Made by a program: the position numbers and the translations under genes. From Geothrix terrae (GTDB lineage: Bacteria; Acidobacteriota; Holophagae; Holophagales; Holophagaceae): DNA of 64,000 nucleotides. Below are positions 40,331-51,337 of the stretch, piece by piece (position 1 is the stretch's first letter; each line of letters opens with the position of its first letter). Location: NCBI RefSeq assembly GCF_022808775.1, contig NZ_JAKZLA010000009.1, forward strand, positions 62,001 to 126,000, given 5' to 3'. The notes beneath the pieces were generated by a model. The model was not told where the DNA came from. It was given only the letters and a program-made list of their open reading frames with translations, and did no database searches.

Positions 40331-40731
40331 TCGGCCCCCTTGGGACCAGAATCACCCTTGGCCAGCTCGGTGCGCATTCTCAGCAGGATCCCTTGGAGGT
40401 GGGCCTGGTCCCGCTCCGTGCTGGGGGTTTCCTCCCCGAGGTCTGCCAGTCCTTGCTCGGCAATTCTGAGCACCAGAGGTGCGGCTTTGAGATCTCCAGA
40501 GGCCGCCTTGTTCACCAGTCGGCGCAGGACCACCTCCATCATGGGCATCACCTTCTTCTGGCCGCCCTTCTCAACCACCGAAATCCGCTCGGCCATGAGC
40601 TCCTGCATGAGGGTGGCTGCGTTCAGGCTGCCCTTCGGCCGGCCCTTGGGGTTCCCGGACTGACCCTTCTGGAACTGGGTGACCTTCGGAGGCCGGCCGT
40701 AGCCCACCTGGTAATCCTTCTCCTCAGCCAT
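40327..40731 (-). CDS. DUF5681 protein (small-terminase-like)
   Basis: A 134-residue protein starting with the DUF5681 signature: TQFQKGQSGNPKGRPKGSLN, preceded by VGYGRPPK. The rest is helical (VVLRRLVNKAASGDLKAAPLVLRIAEQ). Such proteins are commonly encoded just before terL and may act as the DNA-recognising small terminase subunit; that is inferred. It overlaps both neighbours by a few bases. Confidence 0.85.
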   Translation of the reverse strand: MAEEKDYQVGYGRPPKVTQFQKGQSGNPKGRPKGSLNAATLMQELMAERISVVEKGGQKKVMPMMEVVLRRLVNKAASGDLKAAPLVLRIAEQGLADLGEETPSTERDQAHLQGILLRMRTELAKGDSGPKGAE

Positions 40732-42136
40732 TGACCACCTCCTTCAGGTCGGTCGCCTGGCGCTCCGCCTGCACCTGCTCGAAACCCGCCCCGCCCTCCG
40801 CGAGCACCGCGGAATCTCCCGTCAGCTTCTGCCAACGCCGAATGATTGTGTCCACGTAGAGGGCGTCCAGCTCCATGCCGAAGCAGGCCCGCCCTACCCT
40901 TTCCGCCGCCATGAGGGTGGTGCCGCTGCCGAGAAAGGTGTCCAAGATGATCTCGCCCCTCCTGGAGCTGTCCAGAATGGCGTCCGCGACTAGCGCCACC
41001 GGCTTCACCGTGGGATGCAGCGCCAGAAGGTTGCCCTCCTCGGTAGCCCGACCAAACGAGTTCACGCCCGGATACCGCCAGACGTTGCTGCGGTAGCGGC
41101 CATGCTGACCCAGTTGCACGTGGTTCTGGTGAGGAGCCTTCCCATGCTTGAACACCAGCACCAGCTCGTGCTGGCTGCGGTAGAAGGAGCCCATGCCGGC
41201 GTTGTCCTTGGCCCAGACACAGAGGTTCTTGAGTTCGGTGTAAACCTGGTGGCCGGCGTCGAGGACCTCCGGCAGGTGGCGCCAGTCCATGCAGACGTAG
41301 TGCAGGGCCCCGTCCTCGCTGCAAGCTACGAGGCGTTCCATGGCGGTCTTCAGGAAGGCCGTGAACTCGGCCACGCTCATTTCTCCGGCGGCCATGGCGA
41401 ATTCGCGGTGCCTCACGGAGCCGAGGCCGGTGCAATGTCCATCGATGGGCACGTTATAGGGCGGATCCGTGAACACGGCTGCCGCCTTCCGCCCATCCAT
41501 CAGCTTGGTCAGATCCCCCACCTCAAGGGCATTCCCACAGAGCACCCGGTGACGGCCCAGGAGCCAGAGGTCACCCGGACGACTGACCGGGGCCTCTGCG
41601 GAGATCCCAGGAACCTCGTCGGCGGGGTCCGGCTTGTCCTCCCCGGGCTCCCGAAGGTCGAGGCTTTCGATCCGAACGTCGATCTCCCCCATCTCGAAGC
41701 CGGTGACCTCAAGGCTGAAGTCCAGGTCGACCAGCGAGAGTTCCTTCAACTGCTCCGCCAGGAGCTGGTCGTCCCACTCCGAGATCTCCGTCAGACGGTT
41801 GTCTGCGATGCGGTAGGCCTTGGCCTGGTTCTCGGTCAGGTGCTCCAGCATGATGGTCGGCACCGCCTCCCACCCGAGTTTTTGTGCCGCCTGAAGGCGC
41901 CCATGTCCAGCCACGATCTGACCATTCCGGTCGACCAGAATCGGAACATTGAACCCCCACGTCTCGATGCTCCGAGCGATCTTCGTGATCTGCCGTGGGG
42001 AGTGCTTCCGAGGGTTGCGTGGGTCGGGACTGATCTCCCCCAACGGCCGCATAACCACTTGAAGAGTCGTATTCCCACAACTTGATGCCCTACACGGGTC
42101 CAGCCCAGTTACGAGCGTTGATGCCTTGCCCACCAT
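40724..42136 (-). CDS. ParB-domain DNA methyltransferase (beta-class, amino-methylating)
   Basis: A 470-residue fusion. The N-terminus (about 28-115) is a ParB/Srx-like nuclease domain (ISPDPRNPRKHSPRQI, VDRNGQIVAGHGRLQAAQKLG). The C-terminal half is a methyltransferase with D224-P-P-Y227 first and the SAM-binding FLGSGTT (about residue 396) after it, which is the beta-class order. It should methylate adenine N6 or cytosine N4. A start at 42052 is possible. It heads a ParB-MTase, DUF5681, TerL operon typical of prophages. Confidence 0.9.
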   Translation of the reverse strand: MVGKASTLVTGLDPCRASSCGNTTLQVVMRPLGEISPDPRNPRKHSPRQITKIARSIETWGFNVPILVDRNGQIVAGHGRLQAAQKLGWEAVPTIMLEHLTENQAKAYRIADNRLTEISEWDDQLLAEQLKELSLVDLDFSLEVTGFEMGEIDVRIESLDLREPGEDKPDPADEVPGISAEAPVSRPGDLWLLGRHRVLCGNALEVGDLTKLMDGRKAAAVFTDPPYNVPIDGHCTGLGSVRHREFAMAAGEMSVAEFTAFLKTAMERLVACSEDGALHYVCMDWRHLPEVLDAGHQVYTELKNLCVWAKDNAGMGSFYRSQHELVLVFKHGKAPHQNHVQLGQHGRYRSNVWRYPGVNSFGRATEEGNLLALHPTVKPVALVADAILDSSRRGEIILDTFLGSGTTLMAAERVGRACFGMELDALYVDTIIRRWQKLTGDSAVLAEGGAGFEQVQAERQATDLKEVVNG

Positions 42137-45093: not shown

Positions 45094-45828
45094 TCATGGC
45101 GACTCGGGTTCGAGGTAATAGTCTGGGATTCTCAATCCATTCAGGTTGAACCTGAGGAAGTGGGTCACCAGGCGCGGCACGTCGTCCTCGTCACAGGGCG
45201 GCTCATTCAGAAGCCGGGCAAGGATGTCCTGGTGGCAGAGGAAGAAGATCAACTGTGCATGAATGCTCATGCCCATCCGCACCAAGCCATCGTGATCCAG
45301 GTCGGATCTGAGAACGCGAAGGCAGCGGTTCAAATACTCAATGTGTGGCTGAATCGCTTCCATCAAACTGCTCATCGATTCTTCAGGTGGGTAGATCATG
45401 GATTTCGCGATGAGAACCAGGATGGCTCGTTCAAGTTCAGGATCTTTGTCGGGGGGCAGGTTGGACTTCTGGCGGAGGCTCATCCGGATGAATTCGCGAA
45501 TGTAGGCTCGAAGTGCGGTGACCGCTTGTCGAAGCACCGCAGCCTTGCCCGCAAATGGGCCGACTGGCAATGGCGGCATTGGCAATGTCTTGGCGGTGTG
45601 TATCGCCATCCGAGAGGCGAGGTGAAGTGAGGCGGCATGCAGACCGGCCTTTCCTCCGAAGTGGAAGGAGATGAGGCTGCTGTTGACTCCTGCCGCATCG
45701 GCGATCTCTCGGATGGAGGCGCCTTCGAACCCCTTCTCGGCGAAGATGCGGATGGCGGCCTTCAATAGCATCAGTCTCGAGTTCGTGATCGGCGCAGGCG
45801 TGTTCAGGTTGTCTCTGGAGTCAGTCAT
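45094..45828 (-). CDS. TetR-family regulator of the efflux operon
   Basis: A 244-residue regulator. The helix-turn-helix is at about residues 20-65 (LLKAAIRIFAEKGFEGASIREIADAAGVNSSLISFHFGGK). The ligand domain resembles the CecR-like (DUF1956) type. Its start overlaps the stop of the RND-pump gene (ATGA), so it is the last gene of the operon it probably represses. The inducer is unknown. Confidence 0.9.
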   Translation of the reverse strand: MTDSRDNLNTPAPITNSRLMLLKAAIRIFAEKGFEGASIREIADAAGVNSSLISFHFGGKAGLHAASLHLASRMAIHTAKTLPMPPLPVGPFAGKAAVLRQAVTALRAYIREFIRMSLRQKSNLPPDKDPELERAILVLIAKSMIYPPEESMSSLMEAIQPHIEYLNRCLRVLRSDLDHDGLVRMGMSIHAQLIFFLCHQDILARLLNEPPCDEDDVPRLVTHFLRFNLNGLRIPDYYLEPESP

Positions 45829-48800
45829 TGGTTCAGGCCTCCTCCGAGCAGTCGATCCAGCTCGGCGCGCGTGAGATCAAGCCCCAGGCGAGCGGCGAGA
45901 AGTTCGGCCTCGGAAACATTGGCCTCGGCATCCGCTTCCAACTTTTTTGAGACTGGGATCAGTCCGGACTTGTGCTGATTCTCAGCCAGGCGGGCCTTTT
46001 CTGCGTTCATGGCATACGCATCTTCAGCGGCCTCTGACAGGATTCGCGCCGTTTCCACCTTACGGAGCAGCCGATCGAGATCGATCTCAGTACGGTTGCG
46101 CACCCGGTCGTAGTTGCTCGAGGCTTGGCTCGCAAGGGCAGCCCGCTGGTGGACCACACCGGATCGCTTGCCCCAGTCAAAAATGGTCCAACTCAGGGAG
46201 AGCCCGTAGGAGGTGGAGTTGGCTTGGACGAAAGGGAGTCCATCTTGGTGGGTCTGACGGATGAAGGCACCCAGTTCCGGAATGTATTCGGATTTGCCTG
46301 CCTTGAGGGCGCTGCGGCTCTTCTCGAGAGAGGCCTGGGCTACTGCCAGATCGGGATTGGACTTCCGGATCTGATCCAGCATCGCTTCACGCGCTGGAAG
46401 CGGCCGTGCTTCAGTGGAGACAGGGGCAAGGTCCAGACGTGTCTGAAGGGGTTCACCCATCAAGTCGTTGAGTTCCGACGTGAGATCAGAGGCGGTGGCC
46501 TGAGCGGTACTCAGCTTGTAGCGGTTCTGAAGGAGCTTTGCCCGACTCCCGATTTGCTGCACCTTCAGGGCATTCCCCGCTTTGACGGCATCTTGGGCAT
46601 CCAGATCCTGGGATTCGGCCGCAGCCACGCCTGCCTGAGCAGCCGTGATTTGGGCCTGAGCGATCAGAAGGCCGTAGTAAGCCTGGCGTGTCTGATAGGC
46701 GATCTCGGTCTCCATCTTTCGCAGCTCGGCCGTTGCCACCCGCTCCTCGGCAGAGGCGACCTCGTTCCCATGGTGGATCTTGAAAAGCTGGGTGAGGGGC
46801 TGACTCAAGGTGATGTTCTGATAGAAAAGATGCGTCTTACCCTGGCCCAGATTGGCATCCTGGGTCGGGAAGGGCCCCAGGCCCGGCACGGTTCCGAGGG
46901 AGCCTGCTGGAACGGTCATGAATGGCTGATCGTTGCGCTTCAACCACGTGGCATCCATTGCGAGTTGCGGGAAGTAGTCGGCTCGCGCCGTGCGTTTCTT
47001 CCCCGCTGCCTCATCGACCTTGGCCCGGGCGATGCGGATTGCCGCACTGTGGTCGAGGGCGCTGGCCACAGCCTGCTCGAGAGTCAGGTGCTTCGGTTCC
47101 GACCCCCCCGCACTGAGCGGGGACGCCAGGACCAAGGCCAGGATGAACATCGGGACGACCGAAACCACCCGACTTCCAGTGGATGAGCTCTCTTTGGATC
47201 GGAACACGAGCACGTAGATGACGGGGACCACCAGAAGCGTGAAGAACATCGAGAAGATCAGACCGACCGCGAGGACGCTGGCCAGAGGGCTCCACATCTT
47301 CGAGCCCGAAAGAACCATGGGTGTTACGCCGACGGCCGCAGCCATGGTGGTGAGGAAGATGGGTCGCAGTCGACGCTCACCGGCGAGGGTGGCGGCCTCC
47401 ACAAGGGGGATACCCTCGCGCAGCTTCTCCTTGATGTAGTCGATAAGGATGATGGCGTTCCGGACCACGATGCCGCAGAGGCTGATCATGCCCATGAAAG
47501 CCGTGAAACCGAAGGAATTGCGGGTTATGAGGAGGCCCACGACCACACCAAAGAGCGAAAGTGGAATGGAAGCCATGACGACCAGGGGTTCGACCAGGTT
47601 CCGGAACTGGATCATGAGGATGAAGAAGATGGCCAGGAGACTGATGCCAAGGGCCACAACCATCTCGGGCTGTGTTTCTTCCTGGTTGGCAAATTCGCCG
47701 CCCAGTTCGAGCCGGTACCCGGGAGGAAGCTTCAGAGCCTTCACCTTCGGCAGAGCGTCCTTGAGGATGGAAGAGGCATAGGTCCTCGGTGCCTGGAGGC
47801 AGCGGACGGTCAGGGTGCGCACGCCGTTCCTGCGCACGAGACGGCTGGTCTGCCAGGTGGGAGCAAGATCCGCGATGGCCCGCAGGGGTACCTTCCCGTT
47901 GGTGATGGAAGAACCGACGTACGTGTTTCGCACATCATCGAAGGTGGCACGGTGGGCAGGGTCGACCCTCAGGACGAGGTTCACCGCCCGGTCGCCCTCC
48001 CAGAACGTGCTGACGGGTGCACCATCGAAGGCGCCATAGAGGAGGTTCGACACGCCCATGTGGGTGATGCCCAGGCGGTTGGCCAGCTCCGTATTAAGGT
48101 CCACATTGATCATGGGGGAGTCGTTCCGGTAGTCGGTGTGGAGGAACTGGGCCCGGGGGTCTTTCTGGAGGATGTCCCCGATCTGCTCACCGATGGCTTT
48201 CAGCTTCGCCTCGTCATCCCCGGAGATCCGGAACTCGATGGGCGCCTCCATCACAGCTCCCTGCTGGAGTTCCTGAACCAGGACCATGCCCTCGGGCGCC
48301 AGACGTGCCAGGCGTGACCGGAGCTCCTCCACGAGCGCCGTGGTGGCCTTCACGTCCACCGTGTTCACGATGAACTGGCCGTAGGCAGGATCGGGCTGCT
48401 GTGGGTTCACGTTGTAGTAGAAGCGGGGGGAGCTCTGCCCCACGAAGCCGGCAAGGTGAGTCACCCGCTTGTCGCGGAGGAGTTCGCCCTCGATGCGCTT
48501 CATGGTGGCGTCCGTGGCCTCGATGCGTGTTCCCTGGGGCATCCAGAGGTCAACGACGAACTGGTTGCGTTCGGCGTTGGGGAAGAATTCCTGGGGGACA
48601 AACCGGAATAGGAAGGCACCCAGGACAATTCCTGCCACGCCCAGGCCGACCGCGAGCATGGGCTTGGACATGAAGTACGTAATGGCCTTCTTGTAGGCGA
48701 CCTGGAGGAGATCCAGGGCATTGAACTTCTTGACGTGATCCGTGGGCTCCGCGTCGTGGTCGTGCAAACCTTTATGGATGAAGGTCCTGCAGAGGAGGGG

Positions 48801-50255
48801 GGTGACAAAGACCGCCACGAGGAAGGAGACGGAGAGGGCTACCGCCACGGTGATGGGGAGGGCCAGGATGAACTCACCGGCACTGCCTGAGATGATGATC
48901 AGGGGCAGGAAGGAGGCGATGATCGTGAGGGTCGCCGCCAGCACCGGCACGAGCACTTCCGTGGCAGACCGCCAGGCAGCTTCGGGTCGCGGGACCTTGT
49001 GATCCAGTAGCTCCACGTAGTTGTCGGCGATGACGATGGCGTCGTCCACGACGATGCCGAGCACCACGATCAGGGCTGCGATGGAGACCTGGTGGAGTTG
49101 GATCCCGAAGACGTTCATGACGGCGATGGTCGTCAACATGGTCGTTGGGATGGCCAGTGCCGCGATGAGCGAGACCCGGAACGGCAGCAGGAGGACCGTC
49201 ACGACGATGACGCACCCGATAGCGATGAGGAACTCACGGCCCATGTGGGTCATCCGCTCTTCCACGACTTGCGGCTGGTTCGCGATGTAGTCCATGTGGA
49301 GATCGGGCGGGAGCATAGGTTTGACCCGGTGGTTGAGCACCTCGGTCACCTTGTCGCCCATCTCGACGATGTTGTGCCCTTTCTGCATCTCCACGGAGAT
49401 CATCAGGGCGGGCTTGCCGTCGTAGCGGACCATGAATTCCGGATCCTGGTACCGACGCTCCACACTGGCGAAGTCCCCGATGTAGATTGGCTGCCCGGTC
49501 GGGGACATGCCGACCATCACCTTCTTGATCTGTTCTTCCGTGTTGAAGGACCCCGTCGTGTGGAGGGGGATCTGGCCGTTGTCCGTGCGGGCGTTCCCGG
49601 CGGCCTGAATCTCGTTTCTCTGATTCAGCGCTCCCACGATTTGCCGGGGATCCGTGAAGTACTGGCTCATGCGCTCGAGGCTGCTGGTCACCCAGATCTG
49701 TTCGTTCTGCCGGCCGTAGACCGCGATCTTACCGACCTCGGGCACGGTGCGAAGGGCATCCTGGATCGTGTCCACGTAATCGCGCAGCTCACGGTAGCCG
49801 TAGCGTTCGCCGCTCACGCAGATGAGCATGGCCACGGTGTCTCCGAAATCCGAATCCACCACCGGTCCCATCACCTCGCCCGGCAATTCTGTGGCCTTCA
49901 CCAGGTTCATCTCGTGGCGCAGCTTCGCCCAGAACACATCCGGAGTCTTGACATTCTTCTCCAGCTCCACGTTGATGATCGCGAGGCCAGGTCGGCTGGT
50001 GGAGTAGGTCTTCTCCTTACGCACTTCCTGGAACTTGAAGATGTGCGATTCCAGAGTCTTGGTGACCTGCTTCTCCACCTGTTCCGTGGTGGCACCAGGA
50101 TACATGGCGGCGACGATACCGGTCCGGATGGTGATGCTCGGGTCCTCGGTACGAGGCATGCCCATCAGGGCGTGAATCCCCAGCGCCACGGCCATGATGA
50201 CGAGAATGGCCGTGATGGTCGGGTAGCGTAGGAAGGCTTTGATGGCTTTGTTCAT
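45825..50255 (-). CDS. RND efflux pump fused to a TolC-like outer-membrane factor
   Basis: A single 1,476-residue frame. Residues 1 to about 1025 are a complete HAE1/AcrB-type RND permease with twelve predicted helices; the proton-relay aspartates lie in VLGIVVDDAIVIADN. From about 1030 a signal-like hydrophobic segment (VVPMFILALVLASPLSAGG) leads into a TolC/OMF domain to the end: LEQAVASALDHSAAIRIARAK, repeat helices with QTRQAYYGLLIAQAQI, and a second half ending LDRLLRKVET... The separate pump and channel of a tripartite exporter are thus one polypeptide. The membrane-fusion gene ends two bases upstream; TetR overlaps the end. Confidence 0.93.
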   Translation of the reverse strand: MNKAIKAFLRYPTITAILVIMAVALGIHALMGMPRTEDPSITIRTGIVAAMYPGATTEQVEKQVTKTLESHIFKFQEVRKEKTYSTSRPGLAIINVELEKNVKTPDVFWAKLRHEMNLVKATELPGEVMGPVVDSDFGDTVAMLICVSGERYGYRELRDYVDTIQDALRTVPEVGKIAVYGRQNEQIWVTSSLERMSQYFTDPRQIVGALNQRNEIQAAGNARTDNGQIPLHTTGSFNTEEQIKKVMVGMSPTGQPIYIGDFASVERRYQDPEFMVRYDGKPALMISVEMQKGHNIVEMGDKVTEVLNHRVKPMLPPDLHMDYIANQPQVVEERMTHMGREFLIAIGCVIVVTVLLLPFRVSLIAALAIPTTMLTTIAVMNVFGIQLHQVSIAALIVVLGIVVDDAIVIADNYVELLDHKVPRPEAAWRSATEVLVPVLAATLTIIASFLPLIIISGSAGEFILALPITVAVALSVSFLVAVFVTPLLCRTFIHKGLHDHDAEPTDHVKKFNALDLLQVAYKKAITYFMSKPMLAVGLGVAGIVLGAFLFRFVPQEFFPNAERNQFVVDLWMPQGTRIEATDATMKRIEGELLRDKRVTHLAGFVGQSSPRFYYNVNPQQPDPAYGQFIVNTVDVKATTALVEELRSRLARLAPEGMVLVQELQQGAVMEAPIEFRISGDDEAKLKAIGEQIGDILQKDPRAQFLHTDYRNDSPMINVDLNTELANRLGITHMGVSNLLYGAFDGAPVSTFWEGDRAVNLVLRVDPAHRATFDDVRNTYVGSSITNGKVPLRAIADLAPTWQTSRLVRRNGVRTLTVRCLQAPRTYASSILKDALPKVKALKLPPGYRLELGGEFANQEETQPEMVVALGISLLAIFFILMIQFRNLVEPLVVMASIPLSLFGVVVGLLITRNSFGFTAFMGMISLCGIVVRNAIILIDYIKEKLREGIPLVEAATLAGERRLRPIFLTTMAAAVGVTPMVLSGSKMWSPLASVLAVGLIFSMFFTLLVVPVIYVLVFRSKESSSTGSRVVSVVPMFILALVLASPLSAGGSEPKHLTLEQAVASALDHSAAIRIARAKVDEAAGKKRTARADYFPQLAMDATWLKRNDQPFMTVPAGSLGTVPGLGPFPTQDANLGQGKTHLFYQNITLSQPLTQLFKIHHGNEVASAEERVATAELRKMETEIAYQTRQAYYGLLIAQAQITAAQAGVAAAESQDLDAQDAVKAGNALKVQQIGSRAKLLQNRYKLSTAQATASDLTSELNDLMGEPLQTRLDLAPVSTEARPLPAREAMLDQIRKSNPDLAVAQASLEKSRSALKAGKSEYIPELGAFIRQTHQDGLPFVQANSTSYGLSLSWTIFDWGKRSGVVHQRAALASQASSNYDRVRNRTEIDLDRLLRKVETARILSEAAEDAYAMNAEKARLAENQHKSGLIPVSKKLEADAEANVSEAELLAARLGLDLTRAELDRLLGGGLNQ

Positions 50256-50257
50256 GG

Positions 50258-51337
50258 CTACTTACCCCCCTGGACGGGTTCGGCGCTCATGCCGTTACGC
50301 AGGGTGTTCTGGCCGGCCACCACGATGGATTCGTTCCCTGTAAGGCCGGATCGAATCTGGATGCTGCGCCCGTACACCGCCCCCACTTCCACTCGCTTTG
50401 AGTAGACTCGCTGCTGATCGGGGAAGAACTGAAATACCTGGGTGGCGCCTTGGGGATCCCGAACGATGGCTTCGGAGGGCAGGGTTAGCATGTCCAAATG
50501 CTGCGATCCGGTGATGGAGACCTCGGCAACCATGCCCACCTTGAGCTCACGTTGCGGATTGGGGACGCTGACGCGAGCCATGTAGGTGCGCGTCGCCGGA
50601 TCGGCTGAAATGTTCACCACCCGCACGCGGCCCTGGAAGAGGCGGCCGGGTAAAGCGGGAATCGTGACCGAGGCGGACTGCCCCACCTTCACGAGCCTTA
50701 CGTCGGTTTCTGGGATTCCGACGTTCACCTCAATGGGATCCAGCTGCGCGATTTCGAAGACGGGCTGGCCTGCGCCCACCATGACGCCCGGCTCCACCAT
50801 CCGCCGCGCGATGAAACCGTTGATGGGTGCCACCAGTCTGGCTTCGGCCAGGTTCTTGCGAGCCACGCCTTCCCCAGCGATCGCCTGCTGAAGCTGCTCG
50901 CGGGAGGCGTCCCGGGCCGCAGTAAACTTTGCGAAATCATTGGGCGCTAGGCTCTGAGTGTCGAACAGCTGCTTCATGCGGCGGAATTCCTGGTCTGCCT
51001 GGTCCGCTCCCGCCCTTGCAGCCGCCACCTGGGCACGGGCTGCTTCCACTGCATGGGCGAGGTTCTCGGCATCTAGGACGGCCAGGAGCTGTCCCTTCCG
51101 CACTGGCTCGCCTTCCCTCAGAAGGACCTGAACCGCCCGGCCCGGCACCTGAAAGGCCACCATGGAGGATCCACCCTGGGGCGTCAGGGTGCCGCTGACG
51201 CCAACGCGTTCCAGTTCCTGGACACGGGTGGGCTGTGCCACCGAGATATTGACCTTGGCGGTCTCGACGGCCTCCCGGTGGCTCCCGCAGGCAAGGATCA
51301 GGCACAGAGGAGATAGGATGAGAAGTTTGCGTTGCAT
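50258..51337 (-). CDS. RND membrane-fusion (periplasmic adaptor) lipoprotein
   Basis: A 359-residue adaptor with a lipoprotein signal (LLILSPLCLILAC, lipobox Cys at 17). It has the HlyD/AcrA layout: lipoyl half-motifs (VAFQVPGRAVQVLLREGEPV and RLVAPINGFIARRMVEPGV), an alpha-hairpin between them (about 95-170), a beta-barrel domain and a membrane-proximal domain. It should bridge the RND pump and the fused outer-membrane factor. It lies two bases ahead of the pump gene. AGGAGA before the ATG fixes the start. Confidence 0.93.
   Translation of the reverse strand: MQRKLLILSPLCLILACGSHREAVETAKVNISVAQPTRVQELERVGVSGTLTPQGGSSMVAFQVPGRAVQVLLREGEPVRKGQLLAVLDAENLAHAVEAARAQVAAARAGADQADQEFRRMKQLFDTQSLAPNDFAKFTAARDASREQLQQAIAGEGVARKNLAEARLVAPINGFIARRMVEPGVMVGAGQPVFEIAQLDPIEVNVGIPETDVRLVKVGQSASVTIPALPGRLFQGRVRVVNISADPATRTYMARVSVPNPQRELKVGMVAEVSITGSQHLDMLTLPSEAIVRDPQGATQVFQFFPDQQRVYSKRVEVGAVYGRSIQIRSGLTGNESIVVAGQNTLRNGMSAEPVQGGK

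Follow-up and report, generated by a model that had tools for sequence, protein, structure and literature searches.

In the window (the whole 64,000-nucleotide stretch of Geothrix terrae DNA analysed here), a single gene encodes an RND pump followed in frame by a TolC-like outer-membrane factor (OMF). We propose, with a probability of about 0.85, that its product is a precursor that would be cut at an internal signal peptide into pump and channel, and not a lasting two-membrane fusion. It is also quite probable that RND-OMF fusion genes in general, found in several phyla and across at least six changes of state, encode polyproteins that are cut by signal peptidase I, thereby fixing 1:1 synthesis for two membranes.

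Gene structure and operon organization

The gene (45825-50255, minus strand), carried by a genome of 3.43 Mb, is a single uninterrupted ORF with no internal stops. The following features were identified (window coordinates):

45825..50255, minus strand: pump-OMF polyprotein gene (ATG start, 1476 aa, conserved in relatives)
47202..50255, minus strand: RND pump part, residues 1-1018 (ACR_tran at residues 5-1017; 12 predicted TM helices)
47109..47201, minus strand: junction, residues 1019-1049 (basic cytoplasmic loop, core, signal-peptidase-like end)
47166..47168, minus strand: in-frame GTG (V1030) with a GGAAG-like motif upstream, a possible relic or minor internal start of the OMF, read from the sequence
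47103..47111, minus strand: predicted signal peptidase I site between A1049 and G1050, or alternatively between G1050 and G1051 (site rule and comparison with 49 fusions)
45828..47108, minus strand: OMF part, residues 1050-1476, the mature channel if cleaved (two OEP matches, AlphaFold, TolC match)
50258..51337, minus strand: periplasmic adaptor of the MFP/HlyD family (HlyD_D23, 116 bits; RND_mfp TIGR01730, 231 bits, above cut-off)
45094..45828, minus strand: TetR-family regulator (TetR_N, 52 bits)

The adaptor has a lipoprotein-type start (MQRKLLILSPLCLILAC), and 2 nt separate its stop codon from the fusion ATG (50255-50260). Downstream, the fusion TGA and the ATG of the TetR regulator overlap as ATGA (45825-45828), so these two genes are probably co-translated. 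Taken together, the 2-nt spacing and the ATGA overlap suggest that the adaptor, fusion, and TetR genes are all translationally coupled, and they would form one operon whose product is a tripartite efflux system. Elsewhere in the window, an ORF at 40724-42136 (minus strand) reads like a ParB-like domain joined to a DNA methyltransferase, judging from the sequence alone.

Pump and channel domains

The Pfam ACR_tran profile matches residues 5-1017 over nearly its entire length (612 bits; positions 2-1020 of 1021), 12 hydropathy peaks lie ahead of the junction helix, and the proton-relay residues are at their usual positions (Asp404-Asp405 in TM4, Arg932 in TM10). The complete HAE1-type pump described in the earlier note is therefore present, with its cytoplasmic C-terminus, and can be called an HAE-1-like RND pump. 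Because no curated cut-off of the named NCBIfam multidrug permease subfamilies was reached (the best score was 510 bits vs a cut-off of 1250, for NF033617), no named subfamily is claimed, and "HAE-1-like" is the limit of the evidence. Membership in the CusA/CzcA heavy-metal RND family is contradicted by a TIGR00914 score of 345.5 of the 701 bits required and by a distant position in the pump tree. The closest solved relatives are TriC (6vej, 469 bits) and MexK (460 bits), with AcrB at about 239 bits, and the substrate is presumably drug-like.

The C-terminal part contains two Pfam OEP stretches (158 bits) that reach residue 1471. An AlphaFold model of residues 1019-1476, built with 45 relatives, has a pLDDT of 90.5 and displays the two-repeat pattern of long helices and beta-hairpins. 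Its best structural match is TolC in the AcrAB-TolC complex 5ng5 (Z 32.2, 386 residues, rmsd 3.8). Thus, a full outer-membrane factor domain, as had been claimed, is supported by both OEP repeats and by the alpha/beta-barrel protomer fold of the model. Model residues 39-458 align with TolC 1-410, which places fusion residue 1057 (model residue 39) on residue 1 of mature TolC. The predicted cut therefore falls only seven residues ahead of the TolC-equivalent start, and the preceding chain is of signal length with hardly any linker.

A signal-peptide-like junction

The junction at 47.1 kb (residues 1019-1056) reads RSKESSSTGSRVVSVVPMFILALVLASPLSAGGSEPKH. It comprises a loop with three basic residues (R1019, K1021, and R1029), a hydrophobic core (1036-1044), and an end of S-P-L-S-A; AlphaFold placed a helix only at 1034-1043, with low confidence. 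The cleavage site, L-S-A followed by G (or S-A-G followed by G), was scored as having the basic n-region, the hydrophobic core, and small residues at -3 and -1, with Leu at -3 and Gly at +1 being acceptable, not ideal. Two signal peptidase I family proteins are encoded in the genome. Across 49 dereplicated fusions, the chain after TM12 runs through a K/R-rich loop, a short hydrophobic core, and a small-x-A/G/S end into OMF helix H1. The signal-like helix between pump and OMF that had been noticed in the window was thus borne out, with Sec-signal features in every fused relative. Three junctions (L123, L162, and L163) have longer linkers rich in Ala, Ser, Thr, and Pro, with about 22-28 residues from core to H1.

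A simple AxA regular expression applied after the core was abandoned as a discriminator (41/49 at the junction vs up to 43/49 at other TM helices; shuffle mean 36.8). It failed because the proteins are Ala-rich, and was replaced by a stricter rule and by a test of the +1 residue. The strict rule, which also requires a following polar residue and was written after the junctions had been inspected, matched 38 of the 49 fusions. In 1000 shuffles it matched 21.0 ± 3.1 (never more than 30), and at the six remaining in-to-out TM helices it matched 0-8 of 42-49 sequences per helix. None of the 49 fused junctions has a lipobox, which led us to reject a lipoprotein-type junction.

In Bacteroidetes, Gln occupies the +1 position in about 71% of signal peptidase I substrates (PMC5837995). 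This residue is present at all 10 Bacteroidota junctions among the fusions already collected, compared to 1 of 58 other in-to-out TM ends in the same proteins. Thirty CusA-type loci (L188-L217) that were uninspected before provided the sole site test with a prediction made beforehand: Gln occupies +1 at 28 of these 30 junctions (shuffle mean 7.7, maximum 16 of 30), with one gene occurring in both sets (L184 is L213). Bacteroidota members of the fusion set thus carry the clade-specific mark of signal peptidase I substrates; outside Bacteroidota, +1 Gln occurs at 15/39 junctions. There is no evident reason for the upkeep of this residue at an uncleaved helix, which supports cleavage.

Distribution and evolution of fused genes

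A genome-wide scan for related loci found pump and OMF in the same frame in 77 of 80 cases, spanning Acidobacteriota, Thermodesulfobacteriota, Nitrospirota, Deferribacterota, and others. The three exceptions are loci in Dyadobacter (L145) and Spirosoma (L147), each with one stop between the two parts, and one locus (L159) that ends before the OMF. In the pump tree (80 rows, inferred by a quick method and with some long branches), the window clade comprises 33 rows, all fused, and in this clade fusion is the rule in members from Acidobacteriota, Thermodesulfobacteriota, Nitrospirota, Deferribacterota, and Gemmatimonadota. The CusA-type fusions of Bacteroidota group apart in the tree. They are common in that phylum, in agreement with the earlier note: of 198 Bacteroidota genomes, 72 gave a match at E<=1e-60 in a CusA-type search, and almost all of the matches lay in frames of ~1440-1520 aa. 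The statement that fused forms are mainly of this type was nevertheless too narrow, given the several phyla of the window clade. Two fusions close to those of Holophagaceae come from MAGs named as Deltaproteobacteria (L086) and Bacillota (L088); they are 86-90% identical to the window gene at the pump end and 60-62% in the OMF, and their contigs are probably mis-binned or wrongly labelled as to phylum.

The fused or separate state changed at least six times on the tree (counted in either direction), all changes being forced by starred branches, and every fused group has a signal-like junction. In the Dyadobacter and Spirosoma relatives, a single in-frame TAG interrupts the chain after the pump, and the OMF then starts at the same place with an ATG and a normal signal peptide; the signal peptides of these separate OMFs end in LWA before QT and in LLA before QS. 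Since only a TAG separates the two genes and the OMF already carries its signal peptide, a fusion would arise once that one stop codon is lost. In four relatives with 39-40% identity (G304, G181, G328, and G188), adaptor, pump, and OMF are three genes in the same order.

Alternative explanations

The junction helix could remain as a 13th TM helix, so that the OMF stays attached to the pump even in the finished complex. The hydropathy of this helix matches that of genuine TM helices, neither this measure nor the length of the uncharged run sets it apart from them, and the fused frame has been kept over long evolution. The known geometry of these pumps nevertheless makes a stable fusion very unlikely. 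In MexAB-OprM, the intermembrane distance is 23 nm, with MexB (7 nm) and OprM (10 nm) separated by a gap of about 6 nm and making no contact (PMC4754349), and H1 of the OMF is located in the equatorial domain, mid alpha-barrel (PMC8277102); these dimensions imply that ~18 nm would be needed from the inner membrane to H1. Linkers from core to H1 in the fusions are 8-28 residues long (median 12) and reach at most about 10 nm when fully extended, and the window linker would reach about 4-5 nm. Arguing from known pumps, the uncut chain is therefore too short for a canonical tripartite pump, and no known tripartite arrangement would allow a tethered OMF to insert its barrel into the outer membrane. 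The maintenance of cleavage-site features and +1 Gln, and of a signal-like junction through repeated switches of state, also speaks against a lasting tether.

A second possibility is that an internal start near residue 1030 also, or mainly, makes the OMF, the fused frame being a by-product of a lost stop codon. The V1030 codon is GTG or ATG in all seven Geothrix-group sequences compared, a pattern that is not general outside them, and split relatives begin the OMF with an ATG close by. However, an in-frame ATG, GTG, or TTG lies between TM12 and the core in only 37/49 fusions, and is accompanied by an SD-like motif in only four. The V1030 product would be without the positive charges of the basic loop, and the fused frame persists across many phyla. 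An internal start is thus highly improbable as the source of the channel.

The frame was checked at 47.1 kb, where a missed frameshift or stop could have separated two genes; neither is present. The junction is read through in six further Geothrix-group assemblies (G006, G028, G012, G001, G237, and a remnant in G200). Four of these orthologues (G006, G028, G012, and G001) share 87-99% identity within the genus, and the sole change in junction length within Geothrix is an in-frame insertion of 6 nt in G028. The frame is also kept in the more distant G316, G131, and G212, which are 42-65% identical over the pump end and OMF. Although a frameshift does exist in the OMF part of one relative (G019), an assembly or sequencing artefact joining two genes has a negligible likelihood, because many independent assemblies, isolates included, share the open frame. 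That relative, a single-contig assembly with a similar gene (L014/L041), has its frameshift early in the OMF domain, not at the junction, and it is either a sequencing error or a young pseudogene. In Geothrix fuzhouensis SG12 (L085/L075; L085 5980-7680), a remnant that is 93% identical consists of the final ~100 residues of the pump, the junction, and an entire OMF; the adaptor is absent, and unrelated genes lie upstream.

Proposed processing of the polyprotein

Under the preferred reading, processing at an internal signal peptide, the pump part would insert with 12 TM helices and leave its C-terminus in the cytoplasm. The following hydrophobic segment, with its positive loop inside, short core, and small-x-Ala end, may then be read as a signal peptide, the Sec machinery would export the OMF part, and signal peptidase I would cut after about A1049. 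The predicted products are an RND pump that is ordinary apart from a short additional helix at its C-terminus, and a separate TolC-like OMF bound for the outer membrane; three pumps and three OMFs, together with the lipoprotein adaptor, could then assemble in the normal way. For the window proteins, Sec export, cleavage, and assembly are our reading of the sequence. Targeting and cleavage of the chain would coincide in a single step, and the likely gain would be equal (1:1) synthesis of pump and channel, both of which are trimeric.

These considerations alter two statements of the earlier note. "One polypeptide" is correct for the gene, which is one ORF with an open frame, and is probably wrong for the mature proteins, given the signal-peptide-like junction and the linker geometry. 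The unusual topology that was remarked on is real in that a cytoplasmic pump end is followed by an extra helix; since this helix looks like a cleavable Sec signal, the puzzle vanishes if signal peptidase I separates the parts.

The domain architecture itself is on record in databases, where annotated proteins of Adhaeribacter and Persicobacter, for instance, display it, and the genes are entered there as single permeases: for the Persicobacter protein, encoded by a CDS of 4404 nt, the annotation reads simply "efflux RND transporter permease subunit". If our interpretation is correct, annotation overlooks the OMF, and many efflux systems have been wrongly taken for two-membrane fusions. The fusions would also be an example, widespread in bacteria, of a single signal peptidase cut that supplies subunits to two different membranes, a simple form of stoichiometry control. 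A search confined to the open-access literature, and thus weak evidence of absence, found no description of RND-OMF fusions, their junction, or its cleavage.

Comparison with known systems

The window pump part aligns over its whole length with TriC and MexK (of TriABC and MexJK in Pseudomonas aeruginosa) and shares the Asp-Asp pair of TM4 and the Arg of TM10 with TriC. Neither TriC nor MexK extends beyond the pump, whereas the window pump continues in frame into an OMF. The full OMF fold is common to the window OMF part and the TolC/OprM OMFs; the latter have their own N-terminal signal peptide, whereas the window OMF is made behind the pump. OprM and CusC are of the lipoprotein type, unlike the fused junctions. 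Fusions of the CusA/CzcA type in Bacteroidota keep the same order of parts and a signal-like junction of the same kind, in which Gln stands at +1, but their pumps are far from the window pump in the tree, and fusion there is of separate origin.

A precedent for the proposed layout is FbcH, the cytochrome b/c1 polyprotein of Bradyrhizobium japonicum, in which a polytopic membrane protein is followed by an in-frame internal signal peptide and an exported protein, and the two are separated after synthesis; the FbcH gene cluster is reportedly the subject of a 1989 paper by Thony-Meyer et al., which PMC6256036 cites. The precursor layout is the same as in the window gene, although the proteins differ. 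Both products of FbcH are in one inner-membrane complex, whereas one product of the window gene would reach the outer membrane.
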